Assembly (NCBI RefSeq): GCF_026151205.1
Contig: NC_087084.1
Coordinates: 8,738,894 to 8,802,893 of the forward strand
Reading direction: 5' to 3'
Length of the DNA stretch: 64,000 nt
Source: Bolinopsis microptera
Taxonomy: Eukaryota; Ctenophora; Tentaculata; Lobata; Bolinopsidae
Below the pieces are notes generated by a model. The model saw only the letters and a list, made by a program, of their open reading frames with translations. It did not search any database and was not told the origin of the DNA. The number at the start of each line of letters is the position of its first letter. The stretch's first letter is position 1. Shown here piece after piece: positions 30,481 through 64,000 of the stretch. The translations under genes were made by a program, and so were the position numbers.

Positions 30481-30960
30481 CCTTCAGTGCATATACATTG
30501 TAGTTGTAATACTTTCAACACTACTATATAACAAATAATTTGAGCATGAATACGAAGTTGTTACTTTGAAACGTCGTTTATCTTAACACTAACAGTGCAG
30601 TATCATTTGTCATAAAAAATCAGAATAATCAGAAATTATTTGGAACTGACAAAAACTGTCTATACATTTTAGTGTACTGTAAAATAGTACCATGCTATAT
30701 ATAGCATAGTTTCTGCATTTTTACAGAATGCAACATTAATTATTAACATTACAGTTGTTGGTTACAATTTTACAATTTAAGATTCTCTTGTTCTCCCCAC
30801 ATATCATTGAGCATTTAATTATTTTTGATATTTTTGTTTCCAAGAAAAATTTGTTTCTCTATAAATCTTCTATTTCACTAGTAGAATAGGCTGAGAATTG
30901 AAACAACTTACATTCGAGTCCACCTAAATTTTTTAGATTAACCACAGTTCCTTTATAAGC

Positions 30961-32642
30961 ATGAACAAAGACGAATCTGACAACGAATATAAAAGCAACA
31001 ATGATGAATTGTCAAAGAGTAGCGCATTGGCTGAAGCTAACAGTTCCTTAGATGAAATCTTCCGACGCAAATGCCAAGCTTTTTTGGCTTTGGTTACTGT
31101 TGTCTTCTTTTTAGCTTGGGCAGAGGTAAAAATATAATTGCATTTTTGTTCGATTCTTGAATTTAAAATCCTATTTCAATTCAAGTTCATGTATATGCTT
31201 CTATATGCTTCAGAAATATCAGAGTTATTATAGAAGTTATTTAGCCAATGGAATTACTTTCTAGTTGATATCACATGTTATAACCTCTCCACTCTCCAGG
31301 TGTTGTCAGTTCCAAGGAAACTCCTCCATTTACATCAGATAATAACGAATCAGAAGAAACCAAGAAAAGGTATATCAAAGCCCTTGATTGTAAATGGTCC
31401 TAGAGTAGATACCAACTTCCACGATTTATAGAAGACAGAAGTGAATAATGATGAAGTTTATCCAATGAAGTAGATATTTGTTGATAAAGGGTATTTAAAC
31501 AATTGTCTCACAGGTTCTGTTCTGCTGTTATTGGGATGGTTTTTGCCATTACCGAGATTTCTTTACTGGCTTGGTTATCTAGTTCCGTTCCTCATTCTGT
31601 CCCCTGATGATGAGGATGAAGAAATCAGGGATTATCTCGCCAAAAGAAAGCGACTAAAGAAAGGTGAGATCATCTTTTAAAACACCTTTAACATTTCTTA
31701 TATTAAATCTAGGGACATTTTCTTATCGTTTTGTATGTAACGTATAATGTTATCAGCTTCCTCCCAAAGTGTCTTCACCGTGTAATCGTCATGAATAATT
31801 GAATCTGGGTGAGCTTAACTCCTTATTAGATTATCTTTATCTCATTATATCACTCTCCTCCACTTAACGTTCCTATTTCTATTCCACCTCAACATTTATT
31901 TCCAGATGTACATATGTATTATGCCATTTTCAGAGTTGAGGTTGTTCTCCATTCCAGCTGCTAGACAGCAATACTTGAAGCACTTTGGACAGTTCTACGT
32001 CTACGATCTTATCCCTTTTAGCGCTAAGTTTTGTCTCATTGACACTAACCTTACAGTGAGTTACTCTGTAAAATCGTTTTGTTTTCAAACACAAAAGTTT
32101 TAACCTGCTGTCACCATTATCTTTCATATCATTTAGTACAGTAACTATTGTGGTAGCCACAGTAGTTACTGTAAATGGGGTTTTTGCAATTTCATTACAA
32201 TTTAAAAGTAGCAAATATAAACTTATTTAATTGCATCACTTACCAATCCTTATCAGGTAAAAGATACAGCCACTATATTCAAAGACTTAGGTAAGTAATT
32301 TTAATCACAATAACATGTGCTTTATTTGACTTTCAAACTTCTTGCAAGTTACTAAACAATGTGGCTTCTGTCTTGCTGCCCAATATTAATCCATCATCAA
32401 CATCAAACATCGTGCATCTCACATTTAATGGCTTCATTTTCTTTGCCAAATTGTTCTATCATCACTAATCATTAAACACAGACCCACAATATCCCCGTTA
32501 CATTACTCCCCGTTACCATGGTTACACTACAGGTATTGAAGAGGCTCCCTTGTTTGACAGCACCACCAGAACAATTGTCGGAGTTTGCAAGTCAAAGTCT
32601 TTTGTCAAGGCACTTCTTAGATGTACTGGCAGCTTTGTTGCA
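30961..32642 (+). CDS. AMPK gamma-like gene, exons 1-6 (N-terminal extension and CBS1)
   Basis: Exon 1 encodes an acidic, asparagine/serine-rich head and the first hydrophobic helix. Exon 2 is basic. Exon 3 holds the second, longer hydrophobic stretch, possibly a hairpin because of internal prolines. Exons 4-6 encode CBS1. The exon 4 acceptor is the inner CATTTTCAG; the earlier TTTCCAG would bring an in-frame stop after 18 further codons. Exon 6 ends in phase 0 at GCA|GTAAGT, matching the phase-0 exon at 47653. Confidence 0.75.
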
Positions 32643-35600
32643 GTAAGTAATCTATTAGAGATGAATAATGTTGGTATTAGTACGTGAGATAATATACATG
32701 TAACCACTGGCCACCACAGAGAATGTGGCTCACTCTCTCTGAATCAGTATGTAAGTATAGTTAGTAGATAGTTTGTCGCACCAAAAGCTGCCCCAAAAAC
32801 TGCTCAATGTTCATTTTTAAAGCCTGAAATTCGCGAGAATAAGGCATGTTGGTCTTTTCCCGCTTTAATCTTCGTTTTTTACTCGTATTAGGAATTCATG
32901 AGAACGTCTATCTAGATTCACTCAGAACATATTCTATAGAACAGATTCTAGTTGGCGGGAAATCCATTGAAAAGTACTGTAAATGAATCTCACATATTTC
33001 TTCAAGGCCGGATAATTTACCCCCCTTAACCTAATCATCAGCTAATTTCAGTGTTCATTATCTATTTGTGTCGGTATCGCATTACACATCATGACATTAT
33101 CACTTTAGCGATTTTAGTCACTGTGGATAGCCCCGAATTGAGGGGGAGGGAGAGGGAGGGGTCTGGCGAAATAATATTTCCGGGCTGGTTGTTTTCAACA
33201 GATTGGATATCCTGTTATTTACTACATCAAAGAACTTTATGCTAGTAAAAGACTTTCATCATTCATTTTTTCCCACTAATCGCTCATTCTAAATTGTCAT
33301 GATTTTTAAAAGTTCATTAGCTTTATCGAAACATGAGATCATAGAAAAAGAAACTGATAACTCCCTCTGGGCTCTGAGATCATAACTTTTGGAAGTTAAC
33401 CAACAAAAGAAAAGAAACAATTTCCTTTACATGAGAATAATTAGATTTGACACTAGATACTTCAAACTTGAACTGTGATATTTCAGTGGAATTTGCACCA
33501 GTCAACAACCTATTCCTCGTGTTGTTATTTCAATAAACTTCTTGTGACAGCCCGAGTCTAGATATGGATATTACGTCATCATAACCTTTCCTGAAGATAA
33601 GCAGAGTGCATTTTTTGTTATCTTTCAAACATTAAGTCATGTGCATTCATACCGGTATATCCTGTTCAAAAAGATAAAAAGGGGGGAAGAAATCTCGTGA
33701 CATATTGATAACAAAAAATGCTCTATTTCAGTACATACCTCACGTTAAAAATACTTTATTAAAATCCACAAATCACGTTTTTGAAACAATTAAGTTCGAA
33801 TTTTATCAAATACCTCAGGATCATTAATTGCGAAAACTCACACAAGAGATACTGATGCAGGAATTTGAACAATGCCCACGTTTTAAACTGATAATTAATG
33901 TCATTCCTGTCTCTGTATTATAATAACCAAGATAATACAGTAAATATTGGACCTATTCCAACATTCAAATATTAAATGGTCATGGTAGCAGTGTTTGTTG
34001 GTTGGAGCCGACTTGTAGACGCCTCAAGATAAGGGCGCGGTCCTTGATAACATGTAACTCATTCTTTTGGCACGTTTTTACTGGACTTCTGCTGACGTCA
34101 ATTGGATGGTACTCCAATGTCCTCTATATTTATATGTGACCTTATTAAGCGTAAATAAGCGTGACGACAAAATGGCGGTTTACCGGATCGTTTATTCTGG
34201 CTTCAGTCCAGATATTATATAATTATAGACTTGGCCGCTGTCTCAATATGATGAAATCGTAAAACTGTTGCGTCAGATCCCTAAATCATTTAGATGCTGT
34301 GACCGTGTCACGTGACCGTGTCAAATCCCTAAAATTGTCTTGCATTTCCAGGTTTATGAACGGTCTTTAGATGATTATAGTAATCCAATAAAGATATTTG
34401 CAGTGAAACACCCAAATCTAAGGCAAGAAAATTTAGGGAGAAATTTATATCCGAACCAATTCTGGAATAATCTCCAGAAAACGTTAAATTCGTATGAATA
34501 GAAAAACAAAACAGGTTTAGTTTGGATATCAGAGTTTCACAATAAAATAAGTTGTTACAGATAACTAAACACCTACGAGAACAATCTATCAGGAATCTGA
34601 ATCAAGAATAAAAATATAAGTTTGTATTCTTTAAACATGGTAGATATAGTTATATCGCGTCGGATGTAACAGTACCACCGCCGCCGCTACTCAATCTCTC
34701 TCTCTCGGTTACGGTCAACGGACGCTGGCCTCCTGCGGTAAGCGGGAAGCCTTCTCGCCGTGCCCACAGAGTGCAACTCCTGCTAGCTACACGCCAGGCC
34801 TCCGCTCTTATTATACTCATAGCAGACAAAGAATACGTGGCTGCATCATGTACTGTCATGCCTTGAATAGCTCAGACGGGAAGTTGAACTACCACTTCGC
34901 ACATGTCCTTGTTTGACTAACACATAATATGACAAATATGCAGCCGTAATTGCCAGGTGGCAGGTGGGCGCTACTTGCTAGTGATAATGTTCTAGAATAG
35001 TCTGGGAGAGTTAGAGTTTTGCTCGATTCTGTGATATATTGGGTTTTGGGATAGTTCTCAGATCCTGTCAGATACGTTTTTGGAGACAAGTTACCGGATT
35101 ATCTTAATATATCTTACTTTACATACTTTTAAAGAGATTTATTTACAAGATCGTATCCTATTTTTACTTTTGACTTTTGAGATTCTTCTGCCAACTTATC
35201 ATTAGCTTCTAAGATCATCAGTGTAAATGACTTTATAATATGGTATGCTGATATAATAGGCTTACACCAATTAAATTCCTTTTGACAATAGCAGGTTTAA
35301 ATTAATACATTCTCCTTACAAAAGAGTAAAGCAGACACTAGACAGTATACTGTAAATGTAATTACAGATGATAATGCCAAATGCTATTTTAAATCTTTCA
35401 TCGGAACTGAGAGAAACTTAAAACTTAAAAGGTATAATAAGATCTAAGAGTCCTATAAGAGCACACTAAAAGTAATTCACTAAACGATAATTTAGTTTTA
35501 ATTGATTTAATTACATAATCGGGTATAGTGCTGGTATGATGATTGGTAGGTAGCTATGTCTTAGCAGCTGAGCAATATTGTACGCGGTGAGAGAGGTATG

Positions 35601-38600
35601 AAATTATCACGTGACTTAAATTCCTTCGTCGGATATAATATGTGCAGATAAATTCCATGTTACTGACCTCCTTTGCCGTGGGATACAGATATTAGTGCCA
35701 TGATCTGCGATTCCACAGAATTTAGAGGCAGATAATTTTCATGATTTGAAATTCTATAGAATTTATAGGCTGACAACTTGTGATTCAGTATAATTTAAAG
35801 GCAGACAAGTTTTTAAATCTGTGAATTAGTTTTATAAAAGTGTGGATAAGTGCCATAGTCTGTGAATGTGTGTGGGATATTATAGGTGGAGATAATTGCC
35901 ATGTAAGTTGTATGTTGGAATTGGGTGTGATAACAAGTTTTGAACTCTGTGGTTGTAGAATGTTCGTTACTGCAACTTATATACTTCGGTAAGGAGGAAA
36001 TAAGCTAGTTTTAACCAAAAGTGTAACCACAGCTCCACAGATATTACATCATCAGATCTGTACGAGAACAATAACTGTATTCCTCCCTCATCAAAGTTAA
36101 CAGTTATTTTCCATGTACCTTGTATGGATCTATTAAATGTTTACAATCGTTACCACTTACCAATACAGTGAATATTATACACAACACGTAAAAACTCCAT
36201 TCAATTTATTATCTTGAACAACAATTCAGAGTCTAGATAACATAGTCTAGATAACATAGTGTAGATAACATAGTCTAGATAACATAGTCTAGATAACATA
36301 GTGTAGATAACATAGTCTAGATAACATAGTCTAGATAACATAGTGTAGATAACATAGTGTAGATAACATAGTCTAGATAACATAGTCTAGATAACATAGT
36401 GTAGATAACATAGTGTAGATAACATAGTGTAGATAACATAGTGTAGATAACATAGTGTAGATAACATAGTGTAGATAACATAGTGTAGATAACATAGTGT
36501 AGATAACATAGTCTAGATAACATAGTCTAGATAACAGGTTACATTCCCAGTCCTCAGTCCTCTACCTACGTCATGGAGGAAATAACAGCACCGCATCATT
36601 AACTCCTCCTATGTATGTAATGTAATGAGTACAGTTTATTATAGTAGCATTATTATAGTAGTATTCTAGTATATCATACGCTATACACTATACAAGGGAG
36701 GGGATAGTGAGAAGTGATCTCATTTCCGCCTTAACACAGCTCGTAATTATGTTACCTTCGATTCGTCCAAATAAAGCTATATATTACAGCTTTTTATCTA
36801 GAAGTGAAACAAATTCTTCATAGTAAGTGTATTGATAGAGTCGTTCACGGGTTTTGCCAGAGTCGAGGGATGAAGTCATGGTTACAAAGACTTCCGTGTT
36901 GTTGTTATTCTTCATACATAGTAATACTTGGCATGAAGTCAAAATTTGTGATCCACAATCCAATAAATACATTGCCTAGATACTAACCCACTTCTCTGGG
37001 TTAAAATTATTGGTGACCATGATACCAACATATACTAAAAGTACCATACTTTATATAAAATCTTGAGTAAGTCTGTATTAAGAGTACGTGTTTTTCTGAT
37101 TTCAATATAAACATGATCTAAGAGCTAAGAATTCTAAGAAGAATTACGTGATTCATTAAAGGGTTGCGTGTGGGCAGTTACTTCTGCGCCACCCTGTACT
37201 TTATAAAATCTTTAGTAAGTCTGTATATTAAGAGTACGTGATTTTCTGACTTCAATAATCAATATAAACATGATCTAAGGGGTCAATGTCATTGGAGACA
37301 GTATTATTAACTTATGCTGTGTAAAGAGTATGTGCTTTGCTGACTTCAATATGTCTGAATATTAATCAGAAAGATAGAACAGTAGATATACGAGCACAGC
37401 TTACGTTTAACACCTTGACTGTGCACAGCATACTGTTTTAGAAGCAATCTCGCTCTTTAGGCACGAGGGTTTAATGAGAGCACACAATCAAGAAACTAAA
37501 TGACTACACGGTCAGTTTAATATGGTGCTTTAGAGAGTAACCAATCAAACTCCAGCACCAGTATCACGTGACCAGCACCAGTGTCACGTGTTATATCGTC
37601 ACAGTGTCACGTGCAGTACTGTCTGGATCAGCGCGCGGCTCTGATCCAGACAGTATTCCCTGCTCTTTATCAGTAAAGTTGTAAAGTGCTTTATTGATAA
37701 TTTGACAAATGTGGTTGCACAAATCAAGCATGATGTCGCCTGTAATAATGTATTAACAAAGTCAGAATGCTGGAGATAGTTTGGACTATTGTTACATTCC
37801 ATTTAGTCAGCCACATTGCAGGCATGCCACAATGTGTTGTATGGTCGAATCTATATTTGCAGTATAATTGTACAGCAACTTATAATTCTAAATTAATTTT
37901 TCTGCGCTATCACATTAAACTGCAACTTTTCTCTCTCATATCCAGAAGAAATTCTGATTCCAACAAAAGGCAGCACACAAAAAGCATTTATTAGGAGAGT
38001 TGAATTTCTTTGGGGATGATATAGCCAACTAGATTGGAAACCAATAAAGTTATACAGTCTCATATGATATCATTTAGCTATCAGCCTTGGATCCCAACTT
38101 TGGTATATTAAATTAAGACTCTATAGTACAGAGTCTGTACTACAGAGTCTGTACACATCTTATGGAAATAATACCACCTTAAAGAGGGAGGATCCTAATT
38201 CCTAGCATTTTTATACGTTCATTAACCTGTTTAAAACAGATTCATAGTTTTTTAATATCCGTCCGATTAATCTTATGTCACTGATAAATCTGGTTATAAT
38301 CGTATAACCTGCATTTAGTTTGCTACTTCCAGTGGAATGTTCAACAGTGGAATGTTCAACATGTGCTATCAGCTATATGTCTGTTAGTATGATAATTAAT
38401 AAGTTGCAGGCTACTTGAGTATTTTAAATTAGATTTATAAGATTCATAATGCTGTTTACCCATACTAAGTCACGCTTCGATGGCTTGAATATATTTTGAA
38501 TATATATATAATATATATTTCTTCTGCATATTTTTATAAAAGTGCGATGAATATGTTAAAAATCTTCCCGGATTCATTGATTTATAGATCGTTGGTTGAG

Positions 38601-41600
38601 TATGAATAAATCCTTGCCGTGATATTTCCCTCTTCTCCTAGCAATATTGTCACAAACTTGCACGGAACGCAGAAGTTGAATTTAATAGGTGTTTATAACG
38701 TATGAATTTAACTTATAAAGGAATAATTAATAAAGGAAAAAAATTCAAATTTCTCTTAAAAAGTTCAACTTCTTAATGTTCAGACAGTAAAACAACCACT
38801 TCAGCAACATTCTTCTCTATTTTTGTAACTACATAATACAACTGCATTATATCTAAACTTGACAATAGTTATCCTAGAATGTGGAAAGTTCTGGAGTGTC
38901 ATAAAAATCAGGCATTTCAGAGTTCAGACAAGAAGTAGAACTACCACTTCTGTAAAATATGCCTTCCTGTGTTTTACATTCGCATAATATGTAAGCGATA
39001 GTGACTAGCTATCCTTTAATTTGATAAATGAGGGAGTGTCTCCGTAAATTCAGCATTTTAAATTGTTCGCCACGTACTTGACTCACATCCCAGCTTCAAG
39101 TGAACCATGAAGTGAAAATATGTGCGTAACATTTCGCATTTTATGTACAGACTACAGTTGTAACGCCTTTCATATTGTGTAAGTTGACTTTGCCAAGTCA
39201 ATTTGCGTCACAATGAATTCAATTCAATTTTAGTTTAAACAATCAATTATAACAATTAAGTTATCTGGCAGTTTCTTGGCCTCATGACAAGCAATTCTAC
39301 AGTCTACACGTTACATAACAAACGCATTATTATTTAATAAATATGCTTGTGAAGCAAATTTTTTCCAGAAAATTCGCTGCTGAAATAGAATGTGTCTGCA
39401 GAAGATAACGAGCTTTTTTGCTGCATATTTTAATCTGTAACGGAAGTTTTACTTTCGGTTCAAGTTATATTTGTTACAATACTAAAGTTGTGATTTAAGT
39501 GTACTGCAGTCTAGACTTACTAAGCAAATACTTGGAAGAGTTACAACTAGTAGTTGACTAAGTTAAAACTAGTTTTATTCATAAGCTTATTTACGAAATG
39601 AGACGCAGTGGCAGACTTTAAAAAGGCTAAATCTTATGAAACTGTAGTTGGATAATCCCTGATTACATTTATAATATACTAATATGTAGTGATGGTTAAA
39701 GTATTGAGGAAACTTCTCCCCGAATATCACAATAACGGGCGTGCTTCGTTAAAGACAAATGCAACTTTTTAGAGATCACAACGTTGGCGAGCAGAAACAA
39801 TCAGCCCTTATTTGCCTCAACTTTCATGGCTGTGTGTGTTTCTTCCCAATTGTTATTAAGAACTTATATGGGCGTGTTCAAAGTGGTACGCACAGTAGAA
39901 TCGTGGTTGTAGTGCCCTCGCAGGTCATCTAGCCAGACATGAAAAACTTCTGAGTCATCAACTTCTCTTCTGGGAACCCCTTCAAGGACATCGTCGAAGG
40001 GGAAGACCACACCTCACATATATTGACATCCTTCGGAAGGACACGGGGCTTGACGACAGCAAGGAGATTAACAAACTCATGCTGGATAGACAGATTTGGA
40101 AAAAAACTATCTCTGTTCGGACGTTGAAGCCGCCCTAAGTCGAGAGTAAGTCGAGAGTGTAGTGCCCTTTGAATGAAGAAATATTCACTAAAAACTAAAC
40201 ATTCCAACAAATCTCTGTTTGTTCGTGTCTGTAAGGAGAGTTCCAGGCCGGGGATCAAGGTATTAAATCAGGTAGTGACCTTAAAATACTCACCCATAAT
40301 CCAACTAAACGTTTTTTCTAAATGTGCGAAGTTTCAACATCAGGTTTCCAATATGTTTTAGAGCGATAAGGTAATTGGAATTATGATAAAATTTACACAG
40401 AATGTTACACAATGAGTTGTTTAAACACAGCTGCAAACCTTGGTAATTGGCAGCAAACCACGTACATAGCACCTGTTGTAAAACTTGAGTGTTGGAAAAC
40501 TCTCTGTTGAGAATCTTCCAGAAACTTCAGCTAATATAGAGTTTACAGAGGTATATTACCTTTCTTAATAAGATCTTAACTCCTAGAAATTTCGAATGTT
40601 CCGGCAGTAAAATACATGTTGGAAAACCAAATTAATATCCCGCACCTAATAGTTAAGAGATATATATTTCCAATTTAACATATTGCAAGAACTCTCCAAT
40701 ACCACCCTCTACTGCACGTGTCTGAAATGAGGTACGTGATCTAAATTAGCGCCATTTCAGCAGCATAATCAACTACAGCTCAGTTCCTAGGCAGTTTATG
40801 AGATAAGTGGCTTCTTTTTAAATATGCGCGGTCCTGTAAAAGTACAGTATTTGCACACTTTATACCCGGCTTTGTGTAGCCCGCCTATCATAGGTACATG
40901 TTAGAGGAACAGATAAGGTTATTTAAATAATTAGTTTAATTAAAAAAGGTTATCCAAATAATTTGTCTTTCAAATGATAAATTAATAGGTAATGATACCA
41001 GTAACCAGTATACTATTGTCAATTTGTGAAGGTGTAAGCATCCTTTATATATTTTTTAGGTGATTATTATACTAGACTCTAACCAAAGAGATATGATCAA
41101 TATTATATATTTATAGTTATTAGTAATGTGTGCACAAACGTGATCGATAATACTACGACCTACTTTTAAAATTTATTCAAATGTTGTTCAATGTGCGAAT
41201 CGGTATATTATTGGAACTCAAATTGTTTATATTCTATTAGTTTTTTGAGCTTTCAGTGAAGTCAGATCAAACTCAGAGGCAAAAAAACCTACTTTTGTAA
41301 TCAAATTGTGAATTAGAATATAATGAATATACTTTGAATGTTTAATGTAATGACCAATCTTCTTTTGGAAAATGTACTTCGGCCAACATAAAACAATCGG
41401 CAAAAGATAATTATCAACAGAACTTTTGACTCGCTCTTAATGGTTATTTAATTCATCGATTGGTTGGATATCTTTTCTTTTTTTTCCCTTTTTTTGTTGT
41501 CGCGACACCCACTGACCACCGTCATATAGATTATAGAGGTGGCGACCCTCCACTTGGGGAGCGTCCTACTGGAGTCCATCCAGCTGCATTAAGCCCCTTC

Positions 41601-44600
41601 CTGAGGGCCACTGGATGATAATACCAGCCACTGGATGATAATATCAGCCGAATCGGGGTTGCACCTCCGGAGATTTACTAACTTGGGTCCTAGGGAAGTT
41701 CTGGGTGGTTACCCTGGCCGCTCAACACCATGAATGGATAACGCCCGTGCTGAGTAATGCTGGCTCTTGAGACTTGGTGAGGCGTAGGTTGCTAATGGCG
41801 GTTGCGGGTGTGCTAACGTTTGGATAATGTGTTAGGTGGCGGGGAACTGTATTGATACTATCTGCCTTGTGGTGGCTGAGCTAAAATCAGTGGATATGGT
41901 CAGCTACGACACTATGTGTTACTCAACTACAACACTATATGTTACTCAACTACAACACTATGTGATACTCAACTAAAACACTATATGTTACTCAACAACA
42001 ACACTATGTGTTACTCAACTACAACACTATTTGTTACTCAACTACAACACTATTTGTTACTCAACTACAACACTATGTGTTACTCAACTACAACACTATT
42101 TGTTACTCAACTACAACACTATTTGTTACTCAACTAAAACACTATATATGTTACTCAACAACAACACTATATGTTACTCAACTACAACACTATGTGTTAC
42201 TGGGCGTGAGCTGCTCCTCACCCCGCTGATCATCACCCTGTTTTCTCTTTAGCCCTTTGCTTTCTGACATTTCCTGGAAGGTCGGATGGTTAGCGTACGA
42301 GAGCTAATGGTATCAGAGTAGCAAAGAGAAAAGATAAACTTGAATAACGGATACACCAGATCGAAGAAAGATGTTGGCTTGGAAAGAACACGTGCGTTGG
42401 ATGGCGGGCATTTAATACACATATAACTAAAGTACTAGCAGAATTTCCGTTTTGCGCTAAAGATGTTCATTTGATAGATTTCCACCTAGATTTTGGCCAT
42501 TCACCAGAGTTCGGTGACTAAACAGCTATTTAATGCAACTTGTGTTCTTCTCCGAGGGGGCGGCAACTTTGCAAACAGGGGGGCAGCAAAACCCAGCGGG
42601 CTAATTAATGTAGAGACGCGGCGTGAGGTTAGTGTCACGTGGGGGTCAGGTGAGTGGGGGGGGGGGGCAAGTGGATATTTGTAGATATTTGGATAATGTC
42701 ATCCACTTTTTTCGTGAATTATCCATTACAATAATCTACAAATATCTACATTTATCTACAAAAAATGTATACCTCAAATATGTACCCAGAAATTCTACTG
42801 AATTTTTGGAGATAAATGTATAAATTTGTAGAATTTGTAGAATTTTCGTGAATTATCCATTGACAATAATCTACAAATATCTACATTTATCTACAAAAAA
42901 TGTAATCTCAAATATGTGCCCAGAAATTCTACTGAATTTTTGGAGATAAATGTATAAATTTGTAGAATGTCATCCACTTTTTTCGTGGATTATCCATACT
43001 ACATTAATCTACAAATATCTACAAATATCCACTTGGCCCCCCCCCCCTGAGTGATATTGGTGCTAGCGGGAAGCAGTTCTGTGCGCGCACCCGCTGTTTA
43101 TGACTGCGCGTCAATATTTGCTTATATCTGGCATAGGTGCAGATTTCGTTTTGAGGTGAACTTTTAAGTTCCCGAGAAATTTTCATAAGTTTGCTTTTTT
43201 TTCCTCCTCGGGCACATTCGTAACCTACGGGCCAGGTAAACCTAAACTACATATTATATTGACCGTTATGTACGTCGGTATCTGTTGAGGAGCCAAATCA
43301 TCTGAAAAGCCCTATATTTTGCTCAGGCACGTAGCCAGGATTTTTCTTTGGGGGGGGGGGGGGGGCTGTCGGCGAGCGAAGCTGCAAGCTGTGGCAGGGG
43401 TCTGGGGGCGCGGCCCCCAGCGGGGTCCAGGTAAGGGGCGGACCCCATTGGCGGGGGCTAGGGGGGCGCAGCCCCCCGGAGAAATTTTGCGAAATAGGGT
43501 GTTTTAGGCTAAATTGAAAGTTTAATGAATTTACAAAAATGTATGGTTTGGCATAATCATTGCCTACAATCCTGACCTGAGTAATTTACCCCTTTGAGAC
43601 TTTATTTTGGGTTGAAAATTGAGTTTATCGAGAGGAAGTGAAAAATCTCTGGTTCAAATTTGGATTTGAAGCCATGTTTAATTTTTTCTGTTGAGGTCAA
43701 TTTTTTGCGCAGAAAGCGTTCGATTTTAGGGGAAAAAATTTATGTTTGCTTTTAATTTTTATGGTGCCGACGGCACCTGAAATCGACGAAATCTGCAGGG
43801 GTGATATCTGGGGCGTTAGTCGATCGCTGCCGGTAGAGTCCTGGTACATAAGGGGGCCTACTAGCCCACCATGGCATTGCGAGTCCCCTCGCTAGGCACA
43901 AGATTCTTTTATAGACACTAATGCTGACTCACCGTAGCTATGCTATGGGGTACAGACATGAGCCCTGGAAGAACCAGTAAAACCTGACAAGGATTCTCAC
44001 CCTGTTGGATATCTTTGTTAAGGAAGTAGCCTGTGCCACTATTTATAGTTGTAGTATTGGTTGTTGCCGAGCCTTGATCAAACCTAACCATGCTCATTGC
44101 TCAAGTGCTCTAATGACTGACAAATTGGATATCTGAAATCTTAACACAGATACCAATCTCACAGTCTCATGTTCCCCATGTCATCCAACAATCCACCTGT
44201 GAGTGATATCTGACAAACGCGATTATATTTGCGCGGTGTTTTAAGTTTTAAACATACTTATGATTTGACAGAGTGGGCTCTCATCCGCAAGAAGCAGCCC
44301 TCCATACAGACATTTCACTTGGATTCCTCCTCTGTTGATGAACCCACTTTTGCAGTGTACTGTCATGAGAGTGTCGTGCTTTACAGGAAATGCTGGCTCG
44401 GTTGAACTTGATGACAGGTGTTCCCATTTCTTGCCCAGTTCTGTGCAGTCTGGAATTGTGCGGTTTATAGTTGTTTCATAGTTTTATGACACCCTTTTCT
44501 CTAAACAAAGTATACGTTTTATGTTGGTGAAGTTATCACAGCCTAGTGATGTTTGGTCTTCATCTAATTTAACACAAGAAAAATTTAAATATCATTGATT

Positions 44601-47600
44601 CTTTTTTAATGGTAGGGAAATTTTGGGATTTTTCACAGAATTGTTCATTCAGCTTCTTACCCAGATTTGGTTTCGGAACAATCACTATTTCATTCACGTC
44701 CACCATATGTCGGCTTATCATAAGGGTATCTCCAATCTTACAGTCGGCAAAGACATCAGAACCGAGATCTTTGCCATCCTCAGGGAACACTGAGAGGGAA
44801 TACCCATCACAATGTGTTCCCTCGCATGTGAACGTTTCTTCAGAGAAGGTGTAGGTATTCACATCATCAAATGTAGGTGTTGCGTAATGGAACACGTGCT
44901 CGATACAGTACTCCCCATCTAAGGACGCCTTAAACCACGCATTGCCATCCCTATTATCACCATATGTTACTGCTTGAGTTTCCATATCCATGTCTATAGC
45001 ATTCCCTACCACATTATCTATACTTGTTTCAGACTGAGACACAAACACAGGCTTTATTTCACCTTCCACTTTCGGTCTTATCTTTCCACCTGATTAGTGA
45101 TTGAGAGTTACTGGGGATAAAATTTCTGTATATATTTCTGCCATATAAGTATTAAACTATGTAAATTATTGTTGAAAAAAAATAATGACTATTAAGGTGA
45201 TAATTTAACTGATGTGATGGTCTCAATTACCTTGGAGGGGTGCCCAGGAGAAAGTCGTGAAGATGATTATCGTTATCTTCATGACCGGATGATCGCTACA
45301 TAAAAATAGGTTGTAATTAAACAATTCGACTGGGCTTCAGCAAATACGAATAGCAATTTTTTGTTTGTGAAGCGTAGATTTTGAAGCGCAGGACCATCCT
45401 ATCTGCTATCAGTATCTTACGTAATTTAAAGAGCACTACTACTATTTACCATGCTATCTATTGTTTTTACAATTATTGTCATCATCGCAATTAGACGCTT
45501 GGCTCTGATAAGCAATCATAATTTGGAAATGTTACTTGTATTTATAATAAATATTATAATAACCATACTAAACTATGTAGTAATTGATAAAGATGCGATT
45601 AATATTGTGTTTAGGAACCGACCGGTCTGGGGTTTTGGTTGTCGGACCGGAAACAACCGGATATCAATCTATTTTCCGGTTTGCCGGATTTTTCCGGACC
45701 GGAACTGGGTAATAAGAAGAGGGAACTCTCGGAAAATTGAAATTAATCCTTGATTGTGGGTTTTATTCAATTACGATATTAAAAGCCACACATAAAAACA
45801 ATGCTTACAGTCCGACTAACTGTGTTCATGCCCTATCTCAAATTTCAACCAATTTTCTGCTCTGCGAGCAGCAAGTCACTGGTTGATATATTGTGCGAGA
45901 AGTGCAGAGGTCACTGATATGAGCAGAGCTACAAACGAGTTGGAATAAAATCAAAACGCACATCTCAAGAATTCACTGCGTTTTGAGTAGCACAAATGTA
46001 GAAATTCTAGAAGTAAAGCCCAAAATCCAGCTTTCACAAATATAACTGAGGATAATGCCCGCAGTTTGTAATGGCATAATGTCCTTTGTTTTAATCCTTG
46101 GTATAAGGCGAGTTAGCAACGGGTTTGCTTGCCACAATAGAGCAGGAACCCTGGCCCTCTGCTTGCAAGGCTCATGAATAAAGCATTGTTTTGTCATCGT
46201 ACTGAACAAGAAACAGAGAGAAGAGACCAAGCTCAAGGAGAAAGAGAGACCAAGGATTCCTCTTCTACCTGTTCGTCTATTGTCCAGGTGTTCACCAAGC
46301 CTTTTGTTTTTCGAGTCATTATGTGATTAAAAGGATTCCTGGAGACTGCACCGCGTACTAGAATGTGTTATTATAAATCAAGAGGCTTGCATATAATGAA
46401 CATATTGACACAGGTGCAGAGTTGAGTCTGTACGGAACCTAGTAGTTTCAGATTCTTGTTTAACTTGCCGTACAGCAAGGTCATCCACTACTTTAGCCCG
46501 GCGAGGCACATAACTCCCTCTACAACTCCATGACAAATGTTTCATATATACTAGCCGAGTTCACAAGTTATATCCTTGTGTTTGAGAAGAGCTCGTTAGA
46601 ACTGCTTCCTTTCCCTTCAGTATCTGCTTCCTTTCCCTTCAGTATGTTAATTACAGAACTGTCTATTCTTGGTTCTACTGAGGTGCACATAGGGACCCGA
46701 TTCATTACGTAATATGTGGACAGGGCGGGAACTCGAAATCATATTTAATCTAGAGTTGGCAATAATCGAACTATTGTTTACTTAACATTTTCAATAATTA
46801 CTCGATTTAAAACAAGTTGGTAAATATGTTTTAAATATTCAGAGGAAACAGTGTAAAGTAAAGCTCGGTTTAATTGATTTTGATGATAGACATGCTTTCA
46901 AACTGGTATTTCTCGAGAGGAGTCCTGCTGTTTGTACTATAGATACAAGATACAAGGGCAGGTCTCTCTCGAACGTTGGGATGGCCTGAGGTGCTTATCT
47001 CCTTTTCAGTAACCCTAAGCCACTCTGTGCCGAGGCACTATACTAGCTGTTGGGGGTTAGTCCTACGAGCCAGAGAGTGTGTATCACCAGCCGGGGCTGT
47101 ACCAAATCACAACTTGGTAACTGGCCGACTTGCATCCGACCGGATTTGAACCCGAGTCTTCTGCTTGGGAGGCGATCGTGTTACCACTACACCACCCGGC
47201 CGTAGAGTACTATACTGTATATTTAATCTCGTGCGAGTTATGAATATTTACTTGGTAAAGTTGTTACTAAGATAGTAACACACATAATAAAGATTATAAT
47301 ATACTAAATATACATACTGAGTAGTTAGTACATGTTTGTTAATGTGACGGATATGTCAATATTTAATCTTTTAATTGATAATTTTAACCACACGATAGGT
47401 AAGATGGTACATTTTGCAAATTTTTACGAAGCCTGATAGACCAATGAACTTATACACCGCTACCACCCACTGCCTGAAATAATGGTGTATAATCTGTATA
47501 TAAGTTAAAACCTAAAACAACACTGCGGTACTCATATTAACTTGACACACACCCGCATTCCACCAACCAATAATTATTTCGGATAGTTCAAACGGCTGCA

Positions 47601-49759
47601 AATATTTCCCTCGAAACATTCCCCATTTGATTTAACACCACTTCTCCCACAGTACGACGCCAGAAAGCTAGAACGCCTAACATGGAAGAAGCTCTACGCA
47701 CGTGACGGCTACATAACACCCGCCGAACTAAAACCATCAGATGACTGGAACACAACCGCCCTCACCATCAAATCCGCGCACCGCGCCGTCATCTACCAAG
47801 AATCCAACTCCCACCAAAACAATCCTCTGATGCTACTCGGCCATCAGAAACTATTTCAGTACATTTACTACAAACTGAGGACTTACAAGCTTATCAACAT
47901 GTTGAACATGAGGATTGATAGTTTGGATATTGGCACGTTTAATGATCTGTTGAGCGTGACCCTTCAGACTTCTTTTAATGAGGTCATAGCGACGTTTAGT
48001 GAGGCTGCTATTACCACTCTTCCTGTTACTAATAGTTATGGTTAGTTAATTAGTTAATTAGTTAATTAGTTAATTAGTTAATTACGGTTAGAAGTAAAGC
48101 TGGGCGTTCCTTCTGCTTTTGGCTTTCTGAAATTTTGTGTTTCTTTACTATTAAACTGTTTTTATTTATGAAGCTGTGGCTAAATTCTGATTTATTTATA
48201 ATCGGCTGAAAAGTCGTTACATCTTCGAATATCTAAAATATCGAAAGTGAAAGTAAAAACAGAACAGCCTGACGAGCTTAGTTAACTCACAAGAAATGTT
48301 TCATCTTAATAATAATATAGACCTGCTTAGTTTGCAATTAATATGCGGATGTTTGTAATTAACTCCAATTATGTATTCCAGGAAGATTCACATATCTGCT
48401 AGACACTAAGATGCTTTTCGTAAGTTCAATACTGTCGATTTCTATTTTTGTTAGAATAGGGCGTGGTCTCTCTGTGACGAAATTTATGATGCCACTCTGA
48501 CGTTAAACCCCATTTCTTAAACACCATTCCTTAAACTAACCCCATTCCTTAAACCCCATTCCTTAAACCTCATTCCTTAAACTTACCCCATTCCTTAAAC
48601 CCCATTCCTTAAACTAACCCCATTCCTTTAAGTTTTAACTCCATTCCTTAAACCTCATTCCTTAAACTAACCCCATTCCTTAAACCCCATTCCTTAAACT
48701 AACCCCATTCCTTTTACCTTTAACTCCATTTCTTAAACTAACCCCATTCCTTAAACCCAGTTTTGACTTTCGCATTTCAGGACGTGGTATTAAAATGCCC
48801 AACGAAGGTCAGATTGACTGTGGCTGACGTAGTCAGATATCACGGGGTAAGTTATATAATTATAAAAGTAGATTGGATATAGGCCTAGGTAGGACATCAT
48901 ATATAATATTCTCAAAATGGCTCAGAGAATGTTCTAGACTTCATGGACTGTTTGTTACCATTAGTGACGCAGGCAGCGAAAATCTCGACGTTCTGTAAAA
49001 CGCGAAGCAAATATTTATGAACGTCATGGCGCGCATGCATCGTTCTAGTCTTTTAAAATTTTGTCGCGCGCGCGTTAGAAACATTTGGTTCAAACAAAGC
49101 GAGTGTCAAATCAAAACAAACACGTTGATGTTACTAAAACTCACTTCGTGTGTGGGCATTACTACATTTTACACGACTTCCGGTCCCTAATGAGGGTTAT
49201 ATTTCATGTAAGTTGCTCTTAAAGGATAAAGCCGCAATATTTCAATTTCAAAGCTTGTTTAGTGTCCCGCTTAAGGAAGTCAAACAATTGCCTGGACAGT
49301 GGCCAAGAGGACATACTCGAGCATTTAGCTCTAATCTTGATAAACGACCTGAATTGAACAGCAGTCGTGAAGGGTTTAGTTGCTGCTCACTGCAGCAATA
49401 TTCAGTAGAGATGGCATTCTGCAGAACTCTACAAATTGATATGAATAAACGATTTAGGCGGAGGTGCTTTGCTCAGATATTATCATTATTTGCAATCACC
49501 AAAACTACTCCATTTTTAATCAAGACAATCTTTCCAGTTGGTTCCAGAATCTCAACTATGTCGGGTTGTCTACGAATCAGACACGCTCAAAGACGTCCTC
49601 ACAAAACTCAACGACGCCAACGCCAATAACGTCGTAGTTTTGGATTCAGAACAAGTCGTCAAAGGAATTATTACAACCACAGACATGTTACTTTTCCTTG
49701 GACTTAGTGTCGGAGCTTTCAAAAAGACTTTGCAATGGGCCCATATTAAGTGTGATTAG
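30961..49759 (+). CDS. Divergent AMPK gamma-like (four CBS motifs) protein with hydrophobic N-terminal extension
   Basis: Exons: 30961-31125, 31300-31369, 31514-31663, 31934-32055, 32257-32290, 32533-32642, 47653-48040, 48382-48419, 48781-48846, 49538-49759. All ten join in phase and give 454 aa. AMPK gamma subunits sense AMP/ADP/ATP through two tandem CBS (Bateman) pairs in a cytosolic kinase complex. CBS1 begins at 'YDLIP' (residue 152) and runs through 'VKDTATIFKDLGIEEAPLFD'; the 'YDARKLERLTWKKLY' link matches the gamma CBS1-CBS2 linker; CBS2 has 'SAHRAV' (H260, R261); CBS3 has 'AAITTLPVTN'; CBS4 has 'VVVLDSEQVVKGIITTTD'. Residues 1-127 are unlike known gamma N-termini: hydrophobic helices at about 40-54 and 80-107 around a basic loop, then acidic 'DDEDEE'. 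An in-frame TAG precedes the ATG. Several ligand positions differ from mammalian gamma-1. Confidence 0.78.
36231..36534. repeat. 14-bp minisatellite, about 22 units
   Basis: Two unit variants, CTAGATAACATAGT and GTAGATAACATAGT, are interspersed in blocks. The minus frames are open only because of the repeat. Confidence 0.95.
37046..37350. repeat. Diverged direct repeat of about 80 bp, two copies plus a partial third
   Basis: 'ctttataaaatctt', 'agtaagtctgta', 'ttaagagtacgtg' and 'aatataaacatgatctaag' recur in the same order at about 37046-37125 and 37197-37280. A shorter third piece lies near 37320. Confidence 0.75.
37564..37612. promoter_or_regulatory. Three CACGTG E-boxes
   Basis: CACGTG occurs three times in 49 bases within a short degenerate repeat ('accagtgtcacgtg'). 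It is directly followed by a 15-bp hairpin (37617-37655). The role is unknown. Confidence 0.35.
37617..37655. repeat. 15-bp hairpin, 9-base loop
   Basis: TACTGTCTGGATCAG and its exact complement flank CGCGCGGCT. Confidence 0.85.
39899..40135 (+). pseudogene. 3' end of LINE ORF2 (5'-truncated copy)
   Basis: The plus frame encodes 'AGHLARHEKLLSHQLLFWEP' and then 'GRPHLTYIDILRKDTGL', and ends with 'MLDRQIWKKTISV' before TAA. This is the conserved C-terminal tail of many invertebrate non-LTR ORF2 proteins. The upstream RT is absent, as expected for 5' truncation. The opposite-strand open frame of 109 codons is its shadow. Confidence 0.8.
41470..41905. mobile_element. GC-richer repeat-like segment, possibly a retroelement leader
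   Basis: The base composition is sharply different from its flanks and no frame is open. It reads like an untranslated leader of a non-LTR element ('gtggcgaccctccacttggg' and 'gctgagtaatgctggctctt'). The assignment is by impression only. Confidence 0.25.
41907..42200. repeat. 23-bp minisatellite, about 13 units
   Basis: The unit is 'tgttactcaactacaacact' plus 'att', with 'aaaa' and 'acaa' variants. Confidence 0.95.
42657..43047. mobile_element. Foldback element with poly-G/poly-C ends
   Basis: The left end GGGGGGGGGGGCAAGTGGAT mirrors the right end ATCCACTTGGCCCCCCCCCC, and 'atttgtagatatttggataa' near the left is complemented near the right. The centre is a tandem pair of about 125-bp units (about 42714-42840 and 42845-42968), each containing 'cagaaattctactgaatttt'. 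No coding sequence. Confidence 0.8.
43318..43500. mobile_element. GC-rich repeat starting CACGTAGCCAGGATTTTT with a G tract
   Basis: 'cacgtagccaggatttttct', an 18-G run, and inverted GGGGGCGCGGCCCCCAG and GGGGGGCGCAGCCCCCC motifs. This layout recalls MITE ends seen in many invertebrate genomes. The matching opposite terminus was not found in the window. Confidence 0.5.
44159..45282 (-). CDS. Secreted discoidin-like plus sushi (CCP) protein, nested antisense gene
   Basis: Four exons: 45282-45231, 45089-44661, 44449-44258, 44196-44159. All junctions are phase 1 with GT/AG ends, giving 236 aa. Exon 1 encodes a signal peptide ('MKITIIIFTTFSWAPLQ'). Exon 2 encodes a galactose-binding-like (F5/8C, fucolectin-type) domain with 'NAIDMDMETQAVTYGDN', 'WFKASLDGEYCIEHVFHY' and an internal Cys pair. 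Exon 3 encodes one CCP/sushi-like module with four cysteines ('DCTEL', 'VHCKSGF', 'KCLYG', 'LCQ'). The short exon 4 supplies the C-terminus and TGA. Phase-1 symmetric exons are typical of shuffled extracellular modules. It probably binds glycans outside the cell, an inference from family. It lies inside the AMPK gamma-like intron on the opposite strand. Confidence 0.72.
45300..46960. other. Intronic non-coding stretch
   Basis: Upstream of the nested antisense gene on its strand, so it should include that gene's promoter. A CCGG/CCGGA-rich patch lies at 45618-45705. No exon was recognised. Confidence 0.4.
46975..47203 (-). mobile_element. tRNA-derived SINE (Gly-like head)
   Basis: The minus strand begins GCCGGGTGGTGTAGTGGTAA (A box TGGTGTAGTGG) and contains GGTTCAAATCC (B box) with a CTCCCAA anticodon-loop region, like tRNA-Gly(CCC). 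The acceptor and T stems no longer pair, so it is not a functional tRNA. About 150 bases of unrelated body follow. Confidence 0.7.
47653..49759 (+). CDS. AMPK gamma-like gene, exons 7-10 (CBS2-CBS4 and C-terminus)
   Basis: Exon 7 (388 bp) encodes the linker helix, CBS2 and most of CBS3. Exons 8 (38 bp) and 9 (66 bp) are very short and finish CBS3. Exon 10 encodes CBS4 and the stop. The exon 10 acceptor is TTTCCAG at 49536, with the frame starting 'LVPESQLCRVVYESDTL'. Minisatellites fill introns 7 and 8. An AATAAA lies 28 bases past the stop. Confidence 0.78.
48041..48087. repeat. TTAGTTAA-type simple repeat
   Basis: It begins at the splice donor of exon 7 (G|GTTAGT), so the donor is the first repeat unit. 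Confidence 0.8.
48507..48762. repeat. CCATTCCTTAAAC minisatellite in intron 8
   Basis: Units of 13-19 bp ('cattccttaaac' with optional 'taacc') repeat up to 18 bases before the exon 9 acceptor. Confidence 0.9.
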
Positions 49760-49787: not shown

Positions 49788-49793
49788 AATAAA
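49788..49793 (+). terminator. Candidate polyadenylation signal AATAAA
   Basis: It follows the stop of the AMPK gamma-like gene by 28 bases. Confidence 0.55.
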
Positions 49794-49799
49794 AGACGT

Positions 49800-52700
49800 T
49801 CTCCCCTGGAAACGCGACTGTAAACCCAGTTTTTCATATAATTTTTAGTATTTAACCCGAGATTTTATGTTGTTATTGATATTAGGTTGTGTCGTGCCTG
49901 CTCGCATGACTTGCTTGTTTTTTCTTGCACGTTACCTGCTGTTAGTTTGTCCGCCACAAAGGCTAACTGAACTCGGACTGTAATTAGGGAAGTTAAACTA
50001 TTTGGCTGGAACAAATTTGACCCTCTCTGCTGTGTCAGCTGTAATTGATGGAAAGCACGCAAAATATTTGTTGAATGATTTTTTTTAATAAGACAGAAGT
50101 TGTAGCCAGATAGTTTCAGAAAGATGACTGGTTGATAAATAGCTTTGTTGCCTGAGACGGTGGACGATGCATGTATCAGTATCCATTAATACGGGACATT
50201 TGGTGTTATATTTGACGTTATATATTATAGGCTGTTCTTAGGTTTAATATGTGCCATTAGGTATTTGAAATTCTAATGTCTTATTACAAATCTGAAACAG
50301 CTCTGAAACGACGACAGACAAAAAGAGGAAAGTGACTCGATATTTTTGAAATCAAAAAATTTCTTCTCTTTTCTGTCGTAGTTTATAGGAATATATTAAA
50401 TTTTTGGGGGCTTGCTCACGCATTACCACTAAGTATCGGCTTATCATAACATCTCACTGCATGACAACATCGTTGGTGTTAGTCTAACTTCATAGTACAT
50501 ATTGTACCATTATCGGGATTCTGAAGTGGTAAATGGTGGGTTTGTTCTCCTTATTTACATCGATCGGAGACTATTTAACAGTAAAACCTCTATTAAATTT
50601 AACCGGGGGAAGTTGTTTGCTCGGTAAGTAAATGAGAGTAGATGTGCATGGTAGATACGTTTATTATATCGTGTAGATGATTGAGTAGAAGATTAGGGAT
50701 CATGGTAAGTAGAGGTTTTACTGTAAATTTTCGATTGTAAATGTTGTAAATATTATTTCAATATCGTTACTTGCTTTCAGGCTAGCTTGAAAGTTTTAAA
50801 CGCCTAAGAATTAGGCAAAATTTGATGTTATGGGCTGTCAATCGGAACGTTTGATAGTTAGGTTCTGATTTTGATACGCAGCGATTTTCATCTTTATCTA
50901 AACATACCTTGAAACGTTTATCATTGAATTAAAACAGTGATTTTAAATCATTAAAAGATTTTAAATAATTTGAGACCCTCTTGTAAGAAGCTACAAATAC
51001 ATAGATAGTTTTGATTTTCATCTTATCACCAAAGTTGGTTTTTAAGTTGTTGACGAAACTTTTAGTGTCCACACTCCACACAAACTATTTTTCAACGGAT
51101 CACACCTAAACTTTTGTAATTTACTATTTTAGTACCAACTAGCAATTTTACATCATAGTCCATCAACCACTCCCTTTCAGTACTGTTTTTGTTTTACCGA
51201 TGAGGTTGAATTAATTGATTAAATTAACTGATTTAATTAATTAATTAGTTAATTAAAGCGACAGACAAATAGTTGATTGTCATACACCGATTTGTACAAA
51301 GCGTTTTATGTTTTTATCACCAGTATAGTATTCGAAACTAGTTTATCAGTTAGCGTTAAACCAGTTAAATAAATTGTGTATTACTTTTCAACTTTTTTCG
51401 TGAATAAACTAAACGTTACAAAGACTATCAAAATAGTTGTGGTAAGTAAAAGGAGGAGACGATACAATCTAAAATAACTTGCATGACCATGGTACTGTAA
51501 GACCGCGCCAGCCTGTCACTTAACCATATATCTTCAATCGGTGTTTTTTAAACATGTAATCCTGCATGGGGTCCCCAGCTGTAACTGCTGAAGATTGTAT
51601 TTATATTATATATAGCCATTATTTTAAAGATTAGTACCTTTATTGCTCATCAGCTGTTGGAATAAGATACAAGAGCGATGTGTGCAATTCCGGTGCTAGT
51701 TCATACAGAGAACAAATGTAAATTGAAATTATAATTATGATCTGTTTTCTCCCATATATATAACTCCTGATCGATTAATTATCCTATCACATGTAATACT
51801 AATGATGTACAATGATGTGATGCTCATGATTTGGAATTGTCGTCAAAAATTCATTTTTAAACGAGATTTTTAAAGTTTGTGTCGGGAGAGCAATTTTGTA
51901 ATAAACAAATTGCATGCATGTAATTTTATTCAAAGTATATCACTATATGATCATCGTTTCGCATAACATAAATTTTGGAATTCTTACTAAAATTGTCGAA
52001 AAATAGCGAGTCAACAAACTTTAATAATAATAGCAAAGTGCAAACACAATTATAATTATGTATGATTTCAATTTGAGGAGTATGCACTATGCAGTAAATC
52101 AATATGTGAATTGGGAAATTGGATACCTTTACGGCTTACATGACACCTCAAGCTATAATGTTTATAAACACATCCGCTGAATCTTTGTTCAGCGGAATGA
52201 TGCACAGGCTAACTAAGCGCAGCTCAGTAAAAAAAACCATGTTCATTTATAATAAAAACCTTTTCCAACCATGAGTCCGGAGTCGTGCTGTGTATTTCAT
52301 GACATTTAATTAAGTGAACAAATCAAAGAAAAATGGTGTTTTTATTTTTTTATTGTTTTGTTGAAGCTTAAACTGCATGCGTAATAAAGCGGAAAAATTG
52401 ATTTTGTCAGCAATGCATAAAAGAAAACTATTTTCATTAATAAAAAATCAATAAATTAATCATTGAATAATTTTAAAATAATTCATTTTTTCATCTCAGT
52501 TCTCAAATTAATACACAAAGATACTGTTATGTGCCAAAGATAGCAAAAACAAAACTTAGCGCGGCGTAAAAATCTTGATGACGAATTGCAAAGCCGCGCA
52601 CTATACCACAGTATAATAACTTTGCAAAATATTATGTCATCGAACGTCAGAGGGCATCTTCCAATGGTAAAGCTCGGGCGTTATTTGTCATTGCTACGTA

Positions 52701-52900
52701 GAAAGTTCGTTCACTGGTATTACATTGTGATGTTTACTATCAGCTGATACTGAAAATCCTTATTATCTGGTATGTAAGAGCCTCTTATTTGAGCAATTAG
52801 GGCTTTAACCTGGATCTCCAGTCTCACCTTGGCGTCCAATATTCGGATTGACTAACTACCCTGACACGTGACTAACCACGTGACATGATCAGGGGGCCGC
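49800..52900. other. Intergenic stretch between the AMPK gamma-like and CREB genes
   Basis: No exon was recognised. It holds a pogo-like MITE (50579-50723), a TTAA repeat (51208-51256) and a MITE fragment near 52190. The final few hundred bases probably contain the CREB promoter and 5' leader. Confidence 0.4.
50579..50723. mobile_element. pogo/Tigger-like MITE (ACAGTAAAACCTCTA ends)
   Basis: ACAGTAAAACCTCTA at the left end and TAGAGGTTTTACTGT at the right end are inverted. The CAGTAAAACC terminus is typical of pogo-type elements. It is 145 bp long and non-coding. Confidence 0.65.
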
Positions 52901-52962
52901 CAGGCTCCCGGGGCATCAACCAGGAAATGACGAAACATATTTCTCTCAGGCCGAAAGTCTAG

Positions 52963-63156: not shown

Positions 63157-63159
63157 GTT

Positions 63160-64000
63160 AGTAATTAACGATAATTAGGGTAATTAGGATAATTAGTTAA
63201 TTAATTTGCAGTTAAATAGTTCTGGGAAACTTACTCTGTTGGGAACTATTGGAATTCAATAATTTTGAACTTTGTAGAAATTTCTACGCTGTAGAGAAAG
63301 GTTGTCTGATGACCTCAGCTATCTTTATGATTATATTAACATAGGTGTGATTCTTATTACTATGTACTAGCAATGAAATAACATTAAATTATATGGTTTT
63401 GACATATGTTGGTCTGGTCACAGCGGCTTTAAGACTCCATCGACAAATTATCTACTAGATGATATCGAATTTAAATTATTACGTCAGAAAGTTCTCGAAA
63501 AGAAAAAAGTTCTCGAAAAGAAAAAATGTTTTCGTAAAGGGTGCCAATTACTTCACGTAATTTATTTCTGCTGCAATATTCCGGTTTCGGTAACCCGTCG
63601 CCATGGTGTGGGTAAATGCAGCAAACCCCCTTATCCCCATTGTAATTGTATAGGCCTAAAAATTGTACTACATCCACATGTAGAGTATATCTATATAGCC
63701 TAAAAAGTCCCCCCAAAATTTATAATATTTTGAGAACCACTTTTTTCTGAAACATTACCCTGCAACTAACATAAGGTTTGTTTTCACTGCCCCGGTATCT
63801 TGGACGATTTGAATTAGAAGAGTTGTATTTCGCAATAATAATAATATTAAGAAACTATTGGTTTAGTAATATTAGCACGGAGATGACACGGTCTGACAGT
63901 GAACCTGCATTGGATTGCACGACTTTTCAAGATATTCTTTGCTGGCTCACCTATAAATCTATTAATAGCTCGTATATCTGTACATAATGATTTGGTAACA
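63160..64000. other. CREB intron up to the window end
   Basis: No further exon is recognised. A short direct repeat 'agttctcgaaaagaaaaaa' lies at about 63489-63526. Confidence 0.4.

Follow-up and report, generated by a model that had tools for sequence, protein, structure and literature searches.

A predicted second AMPK gamma paralogue in the ctenophore Bolinopsis microptera, with altered nucleotide-site residues and a putative hydrophobic extension

A 64,000-nucleotide stretch of the genome of the ctenophore Bolinopsis microptera (contig NC_087084.1, positions 8,738,894 to 8,802,893; here called the window) carries a ten-exon gene that, judged by its sequence, is almost certainly a second, divergent and fast-evolving paralogue of the gamma subunit of AMPK. 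The best explanation of our observations, to which we give a probability of about 0.6, is a divergent gamma with altered sensing that is placed by an N-terminal extension of its own. Such a paralogue, lacking most of the phosphate- and ribose-binding residues of gamma-1 as well as the relay residue K170, would not read AMP and ATP as gamma-1 does; its role would be structural or under different regulation, with docking to beta and alpha kept, and its extension may place the AMPK complex, possibly through hydrophobic segments in a membrane. That the gene is truly a second gamma, and one whose nucleotide sites have decayed, is firm to probable, and gammas bearing such an extension are not yet a new class.

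Gene structure and kinship with AMPK gamma

Spliced in silico from the window DNA, the ten exons, all on the plus strand, join in phase to encode 454 residues, stop-free until the last codon, and all nine introns run from GT to AG, bearing out the original prediction of ten exons joined in phase. The CBS body begins in exon 4 (31934-32055), which opens the first repeat (CBS1) with the motif YDLIP, and CBS1 continues in exon 5 (32257-32290) and exon 6 (32533-32642, joined in phase); exons 4 and 6 are homologous to gamma-1. Beyond an intron of 15 kb lie exon 7 (47653-48040), with CBS2 and CBS3, exon 8 (48382-48419), also in CBS3, exon 9 (48781-48846; 22 codons, joined in phase) and exon 10 (49538-49759), which holds CBS4 and ends in a TAG stop.

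Among PDB sequences, residues 145-441 of the spliced protein match AMPK gamma-1 (4cfe chain E; E 1.4e-24, 90 bits), and SNF4 (E 3.6e-10) and ‘Protein C1556.08c’ (E 1.2e-9), which we take to be the fission-yeast gamma, were also matched. Pfam recognises CBS alone, in two stretches (best at 391-434; exon 10 by itself gives E 3.7e-6), exon 7 by itself, spanning CBS2 and CBS3, is without a Pfam CBS match, and none of nine NCBIfam families came near its cut-off. The reading of four CBS motifs is thus carried by the gamma-1 alignment, which is collinear, whereas Pfam sees the domain in two stretches only. Since the same alignment spans the junction of exons 6 and 7 and continues through it, the 15-kb intron is no misjoin.

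Searching the same genome with the core of rat gamma-1 gave six matches in total. Three are exons on another contig, C5, with 46-57% identity; two more fall on exons in the window itself (E 8.4e-4 and 0.19), and a single one lies on C4 (E 0.11). From the C5 matches we rebuilt an ordinary gamma of ten exons (C5:8610847-8622357), the first exon being placed by phase and splice sites alone. Of the residues aligned with rat gamma-1, the C5 protein has 138 of 294 identical and the window protein 75 of 285, and the two ctenophore proteins agree with each other at 80 of 332. Exons of an AMPK beta subunit are found on a further contig, C8.

The window gene and the C5 gamma have several introns in common. 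At 34 nt, exon 5 has the same length and phases (0 in, 1 out) as the corresponding C5 exon; exon 8, at 38 nt, likewise equals its C5 counterpart in length and phases (1 in, 0 out); and in both genes a phase-1 intron lies upstream of the YDLIP exon. By manual count this intron stands 22 residues from the Y of YDLIP in the window gene and 16 on C5, the former figure falling to 14 if the acceptor at 31958 is used instead. A phase-0 intron precedes both the last exon of the window gene and the C5 exon entering CBS4, with differing residue counts. Intron 6 (phase 0) occurs in the window gene only, and three introns, after NKGLISI, ENVKQ and YSAQ, occur on C5 only. The common introns argue for common descent, and they confirm junctions 4/5, 5/6, 7/8 and 8/9 independently of the original prediction. 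The comparison demonstrates, at the level of sequence, a sound CBS body that shares its descent with the genome's ordinary gamma; the earlier description of the gene as AMPK gamma-like thus holds, on both the four-repeat homology and the introns.

Several other features were seen in the window. The large intron contains two tandem arrays, one at 36230-36536 (14-base unit, 21.9 copies) and one at 41900-42201 (23-base unit, 13 copies), and intron 8 contains an array of TTAAACCCCATTCC-like units (48503-48758) that ends shortly before the exon 9 acceptor. On the minus strand within the 15-kb intron, two open frames, 80 and 174 aa long and containing several cysteines (44241-45093), for which Pfam returned nothing, are possibly a nested gene; nested intronic genes are described as common in Hormiphora in an excerpt of PMC8527503. 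A plus-strand open frame of 307 aa at 1492-2415 resembles, by eye, the first ORF of a LINE and had no Pfam match above cut-off.

Residues of the adenine-nucleotide sites

We mapped onto a three-way alignment 20 gamma-1 positions, which we take to be the adenine-nucleotide contacts of sites 1, 3 and 4; a literature search for a list of gamma-1 site residues found no paper. The C5 gamma keeps 17 of the 20, the changes being V130I, A205K and S242A. The window protein keeps five (H151, R152, T200, L277 and D317), or six in the gapped alignment, where D245 is also kept. Because exon 8 has the same length as its C5 counterpart, an ungapped alignment of this exon is suggested, and D245 then reads M. 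The replacements are R70E, M85V, T87K, D90S, V130A, K170Q, A205L, S226T, A227T, S242M, R269H, H298N, R299N and S314T, position 242 reading D rather than M without the exon 8 gap.

Excerpts of PMC6274893 give sites 1, 3 and 4 as the functional nucleotide sites of AMPK gamma, with the ribose-binding Asp replaced in the empty site 2, and name K170, R171 and F179 as required for the AMP signal to alpha and the AMP-driven release of autoinhibition. Besides K170Q, the alignment reads K, Q, Y and K in the window protein at R171, K174, F175 and F179. K174, F175 and F179 are no test, since the C5 gamma has changed there too (to N, H and Y).

Judged by the contacts of sites 1, 3 and 4, the window protein departs from the gammas; its membership is by descent, and we have lowered the claim that it senses AMP in the gamma manner. 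With these losses, the AMP relay in its known form is probably absent, ordinary AMP sensing is unlikely and nucleotide sensing has probably been altered. The site residues therefore make the original idea of an energy-sensing module less likely. The alternative offered with it, a sensor for another ligand, gains only from the replacement of most of these AMP/ATP contacts, but no other ligand is indicated.

The N-terminal exons and the 5′ end of the gene

The proposed extension is encoded by exon 1 (30961-31125; ATG, 55 codons), exon 2 (31300-31369 as originally drawn, beginning VLSVPRKLLHL) and exon 3 (31514-31663), in which a hydrophobic stretch is followed by SPDDEDEEIRDYLAKRKRLKK. Hydrophobic stretches had been placed at about 40-54 and 80-107; we find one peak spanning the 19 residues 41-59, where the Kyte-Doolittle mean is 2.32, and another at about 80-109 (best 1.51). 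For comparison we used two reference stretches of the window, 33,001-47,500 and 49,901-64,000, inside which unknown genes are possible. Counting both strands, these stretches have 115 ORFs with 55 or more codons, and 2 of them hold a peak as strong as that of exon 1, which is therefore unusual; of their 154 ORFs with 49 or more codons, 25 hold one as strong as that of exon 3, which alone is not unusual.

Exons 1 and 3 score as coding. On a coding score whose training set was 8,030 codons from 24 kinase loci, exon 1 reaches 0.068 per codon in its own frame (-0.364 and -0.829 in the others) and exon 3 reaches 0.086 (-0.196 and -0.440), as against a range of -0.034 to 0.143 for exons 4-10, each of which is best in its own frame. 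The exon 1 score is reached by 7.1% of 1,018 stop-free reference windows and the exon 3 score by 5.7% of 1,429, these windows being overlapping and non-independent. Exon 2 scores -0.111 in the frame originally drawn, a value matched by a fraction of 0.50 of 6,335 stop-free non-coding windows, and +0.144 when read two bases on; short exons carry little information here, the confirmed 22-codon exon 9 itself having a fraction of 0.27.

Splice sites were scored with matrices built from 14 donors and 15 acceptors of exons 4-10 and the C5 gamma, which are coarse and favour the sites they were trained on (donors 5.1-8.4, acceptors 4.3-11.9). The exon 2 acceptor, at 9.73, tops all 834 background AGs. 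Donors 1 (GAG/gtaaaa, 2.18) and 2 (2.45) are weak, and the exon 3 donor (3.93) and acceptor (3.95) fall just under all the training sites, so that all three donors lie below the training range. In an outside check on chaperonin introns, six donors scored 0.9-5.9 and six acceptors 4.9-8.4. Of the seven junctions in that check, four had multiple candidates, of which the better-scoring was taken, biasing the scores upward, and one was set aside, its sole candidate scoring -2.8 at the acceptor and -0.1 at the donor. An acceptor-like site scoring 4.19 lies 24 nt upstream of the exon 1 ATG; among 10 reference ATG frames with 50 or more codons, 1 is preceded by an equally good acceptor.

Other versions of exons 1 and 2 score better. 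A shorter exon 1 (30961-31092, plus strand; donor TTG/gttact, 4.1), which keeps the same phase, totals 11.47 as against 9.69 for the exon ending at 31125, and its donor at 31092 removes most of the first hydrophobic stretch. An alternative exon 2 (VVSSKETPPFTSDNNESEETKKRYIKALD; 31300-31389, plus strand), read two bases on and in phase with exon 3, scores 16.87 as against 8.19 for the original version and has a donor of 4.15, while the highest-scoring exon 1 in the phase it requires depends on a donor of -1.1 and lacks the first hydrophobic stretch. Acceptors lying inside exon 3, whose use would shorten the hydrophobic part, reach only 0.28 and 0.42. The acceptor at 31958 (6.08), usable in the same phase, is stronger than exon 4's own (4.79). 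Chaining of exons upstream yielded implausible tiny exons, the cost of an intron having been set too low; that output was rejected and single-piece scores alone were used.

Thus the proposal of a membrane-spanning N-terminus keeps its two hydropathy peaks, while its 5′ exons are unproven and soluble alternatives exist. That the hydrophobic extension is expressed and anchors the protein in a membrane we hold only tentatively, a little short of even odds; we lowered this estimate slightly because the shorter exon 1 scores better. Doubtful, in our estimation, is the bolder reading that the paralogue gave up adenine-nucleotide sensing, gained a membrane anchor and reports a non-AMP signal from a membrane-fixed AMPK-like complex or CBS body. 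If real, the hydrophobic extension would, as far as the genome was searched, belong to this paralogue alone, since on C5 the YDLIP exon is preceded by a hydrophilic one (PQSPLYKRQATKQAKIFEDINE). A search of the genome with the N-terminal 120 residues found, besides the gene itself, a best match at C3:944859-945044 with E 5.3, though such a search can miss matches; in Pfam the N-terminus had nothing above cut-off (DUF3671 only, E 0.048, 13.5 bits vs 34), and among PDB sequences it had no match at E 10; exon 3 likewise had no relative in Pfam or the PDB. Within the papers listed by a literature search for a membrane-bound AMPK gamma or a ctenophore PRKAG, nothing was found.

The strongest competitor, credible even though the odds are against it, is a soluble divergent gamma of ordinary size, entered by transcription or by a trans-spliced leader at the acceptor before an ATG at 31906, with exons 1-3 non-coding, belonging to a different small gene or making up a minor variant. 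The alternative start (31906-31933, plus strand; MYICIMPFS) consists of an acceptor followed by an ATG in frame with exon 4. Its acceptor (CAG/ATG) scores 5.0, as good as exon 4's own, and from it the protein would begin MYICIMPFSELRLF... and run, by count, to a soluble gamma of 335 aa, near the 331 residues of the 4cfe gamma-1 chain. Ctenophores commonly trans-splice leaders onto their transcripts, and in Hormiphora 56% of Iso-Seq reads bear one, a figure stated as a lower bound (excerpts of PMC8527503), making entry at the 31906 acceptor a real option. A ctenophore leader motif adapted from the same paper has 14 matches in the genome at up to 2 mismatches (0 for the reversed control), and an extended version with GTA at its end has 10 at up to 3 mismatches (control 0), of which 7 end in GTA, so that leader copies followed by GTA are present. 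Human gamma-2 and gamma-3 likewise have short forms from other start sites (excerpts of PMC4700476). Against a soluble protein, the C5 gamma also has a phase-1 intron before its YDLIP exon, and exons 1 and 3 score as coding.

In the window the ungapped leader pattern has no match, and a one-base-shorter copy of the spliced leader (CAACACTACTATATAACAAATAATTTGAG) lies at 30510-30544, ending 417 bases upstream of the exon 1 ATG. It is followed by CATGAATACG, not by GT as in 7 of 10 genome copies, and might resemble a retroposed leader-bearing mRNA. Elsewhere on the window's own contig, six leader copies fall within 60 kb (G000:C13:12796628-12856167) and may belong to a cluster of leader RNA genes.

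We think it improbable that exons 1-3 make up a gene of their own, coding for a small membrane protein, that adjoins the gamma gene and ends just past exon 3. The frame of exon 3 does close five residues beyond the donor, after GEIIF, and an ATTAAA was seen by eye at 31702-31707, but that hexamer has little weight in AT-rich DNA (window G+C 0.369), and the exon 3 donor is fair and in the phase needed by exon 4. The original statement that the extension is not an obvious neighbour gene is therefore strengthened by the phase-1 intron before YDLIP in the ordinary gamma and weakened by this possibility. Least probable of all is a decaying duplicate, a pseudogene in progress, as the low identity and lost site residues might suggest: exons 4-10 have uninterrupted frames and GT-AG splice sites, each is best in its own frame, and an AATAAA, seen by eye at 49788-49793, lies 3′ of the exon 10 stop.

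Comparison with known systems

AMPK, an energy sensor of ancient origin, is usually described as soluble, with its beta subunit bringing it to membranes. That subunit is myristoylated (excerpt of PMC6274893). A ctenophore gamma that has lost most nucleotide contacts beside an intact gamma would mean that scaffold and sensor have come apart in nature and, should the extension of our divergent paralogue be real, a gamma would be doing its own membrane placement. Both can be tested, because the published Bolinopsis annotation, according to an excerpt of PMC10232365, drew on RNA-seq and Iso-Seq reads.

In AMPK gamma-2 and gamma-3, as in the proposed protein, an extension of unclear function precedes the CBS body and is unrelated between isoforms; those extensions are about 250 and 180 residues long, and the excerpted text makes no mention of a membrane segment (PMC4700476). 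Gamma-1 (rat/human PRKAG1; 4cfe, 2v8q) is matched by the body of the window protein from YDLIP to the last CBS repeat, whereas overall identity is low, most of the nucleotide contacts are replaced and 128 extra N-terminal residues are proposed. CNNM/CorC and CLC chloride channels also join a CBS module to a membrane part, which in the window protein is putative; they carry one CBS pair following large transporter domains, unlike the window protein, which has no Pfam membrane domain above cut-off. With the ordinary gamma on C5 the window protein has in common the gamma body and several intron positions and phases, while the C5 protein differs in retaining 17 of the 20 site positions and in the hydrophilic exon that precedes YDLIP.
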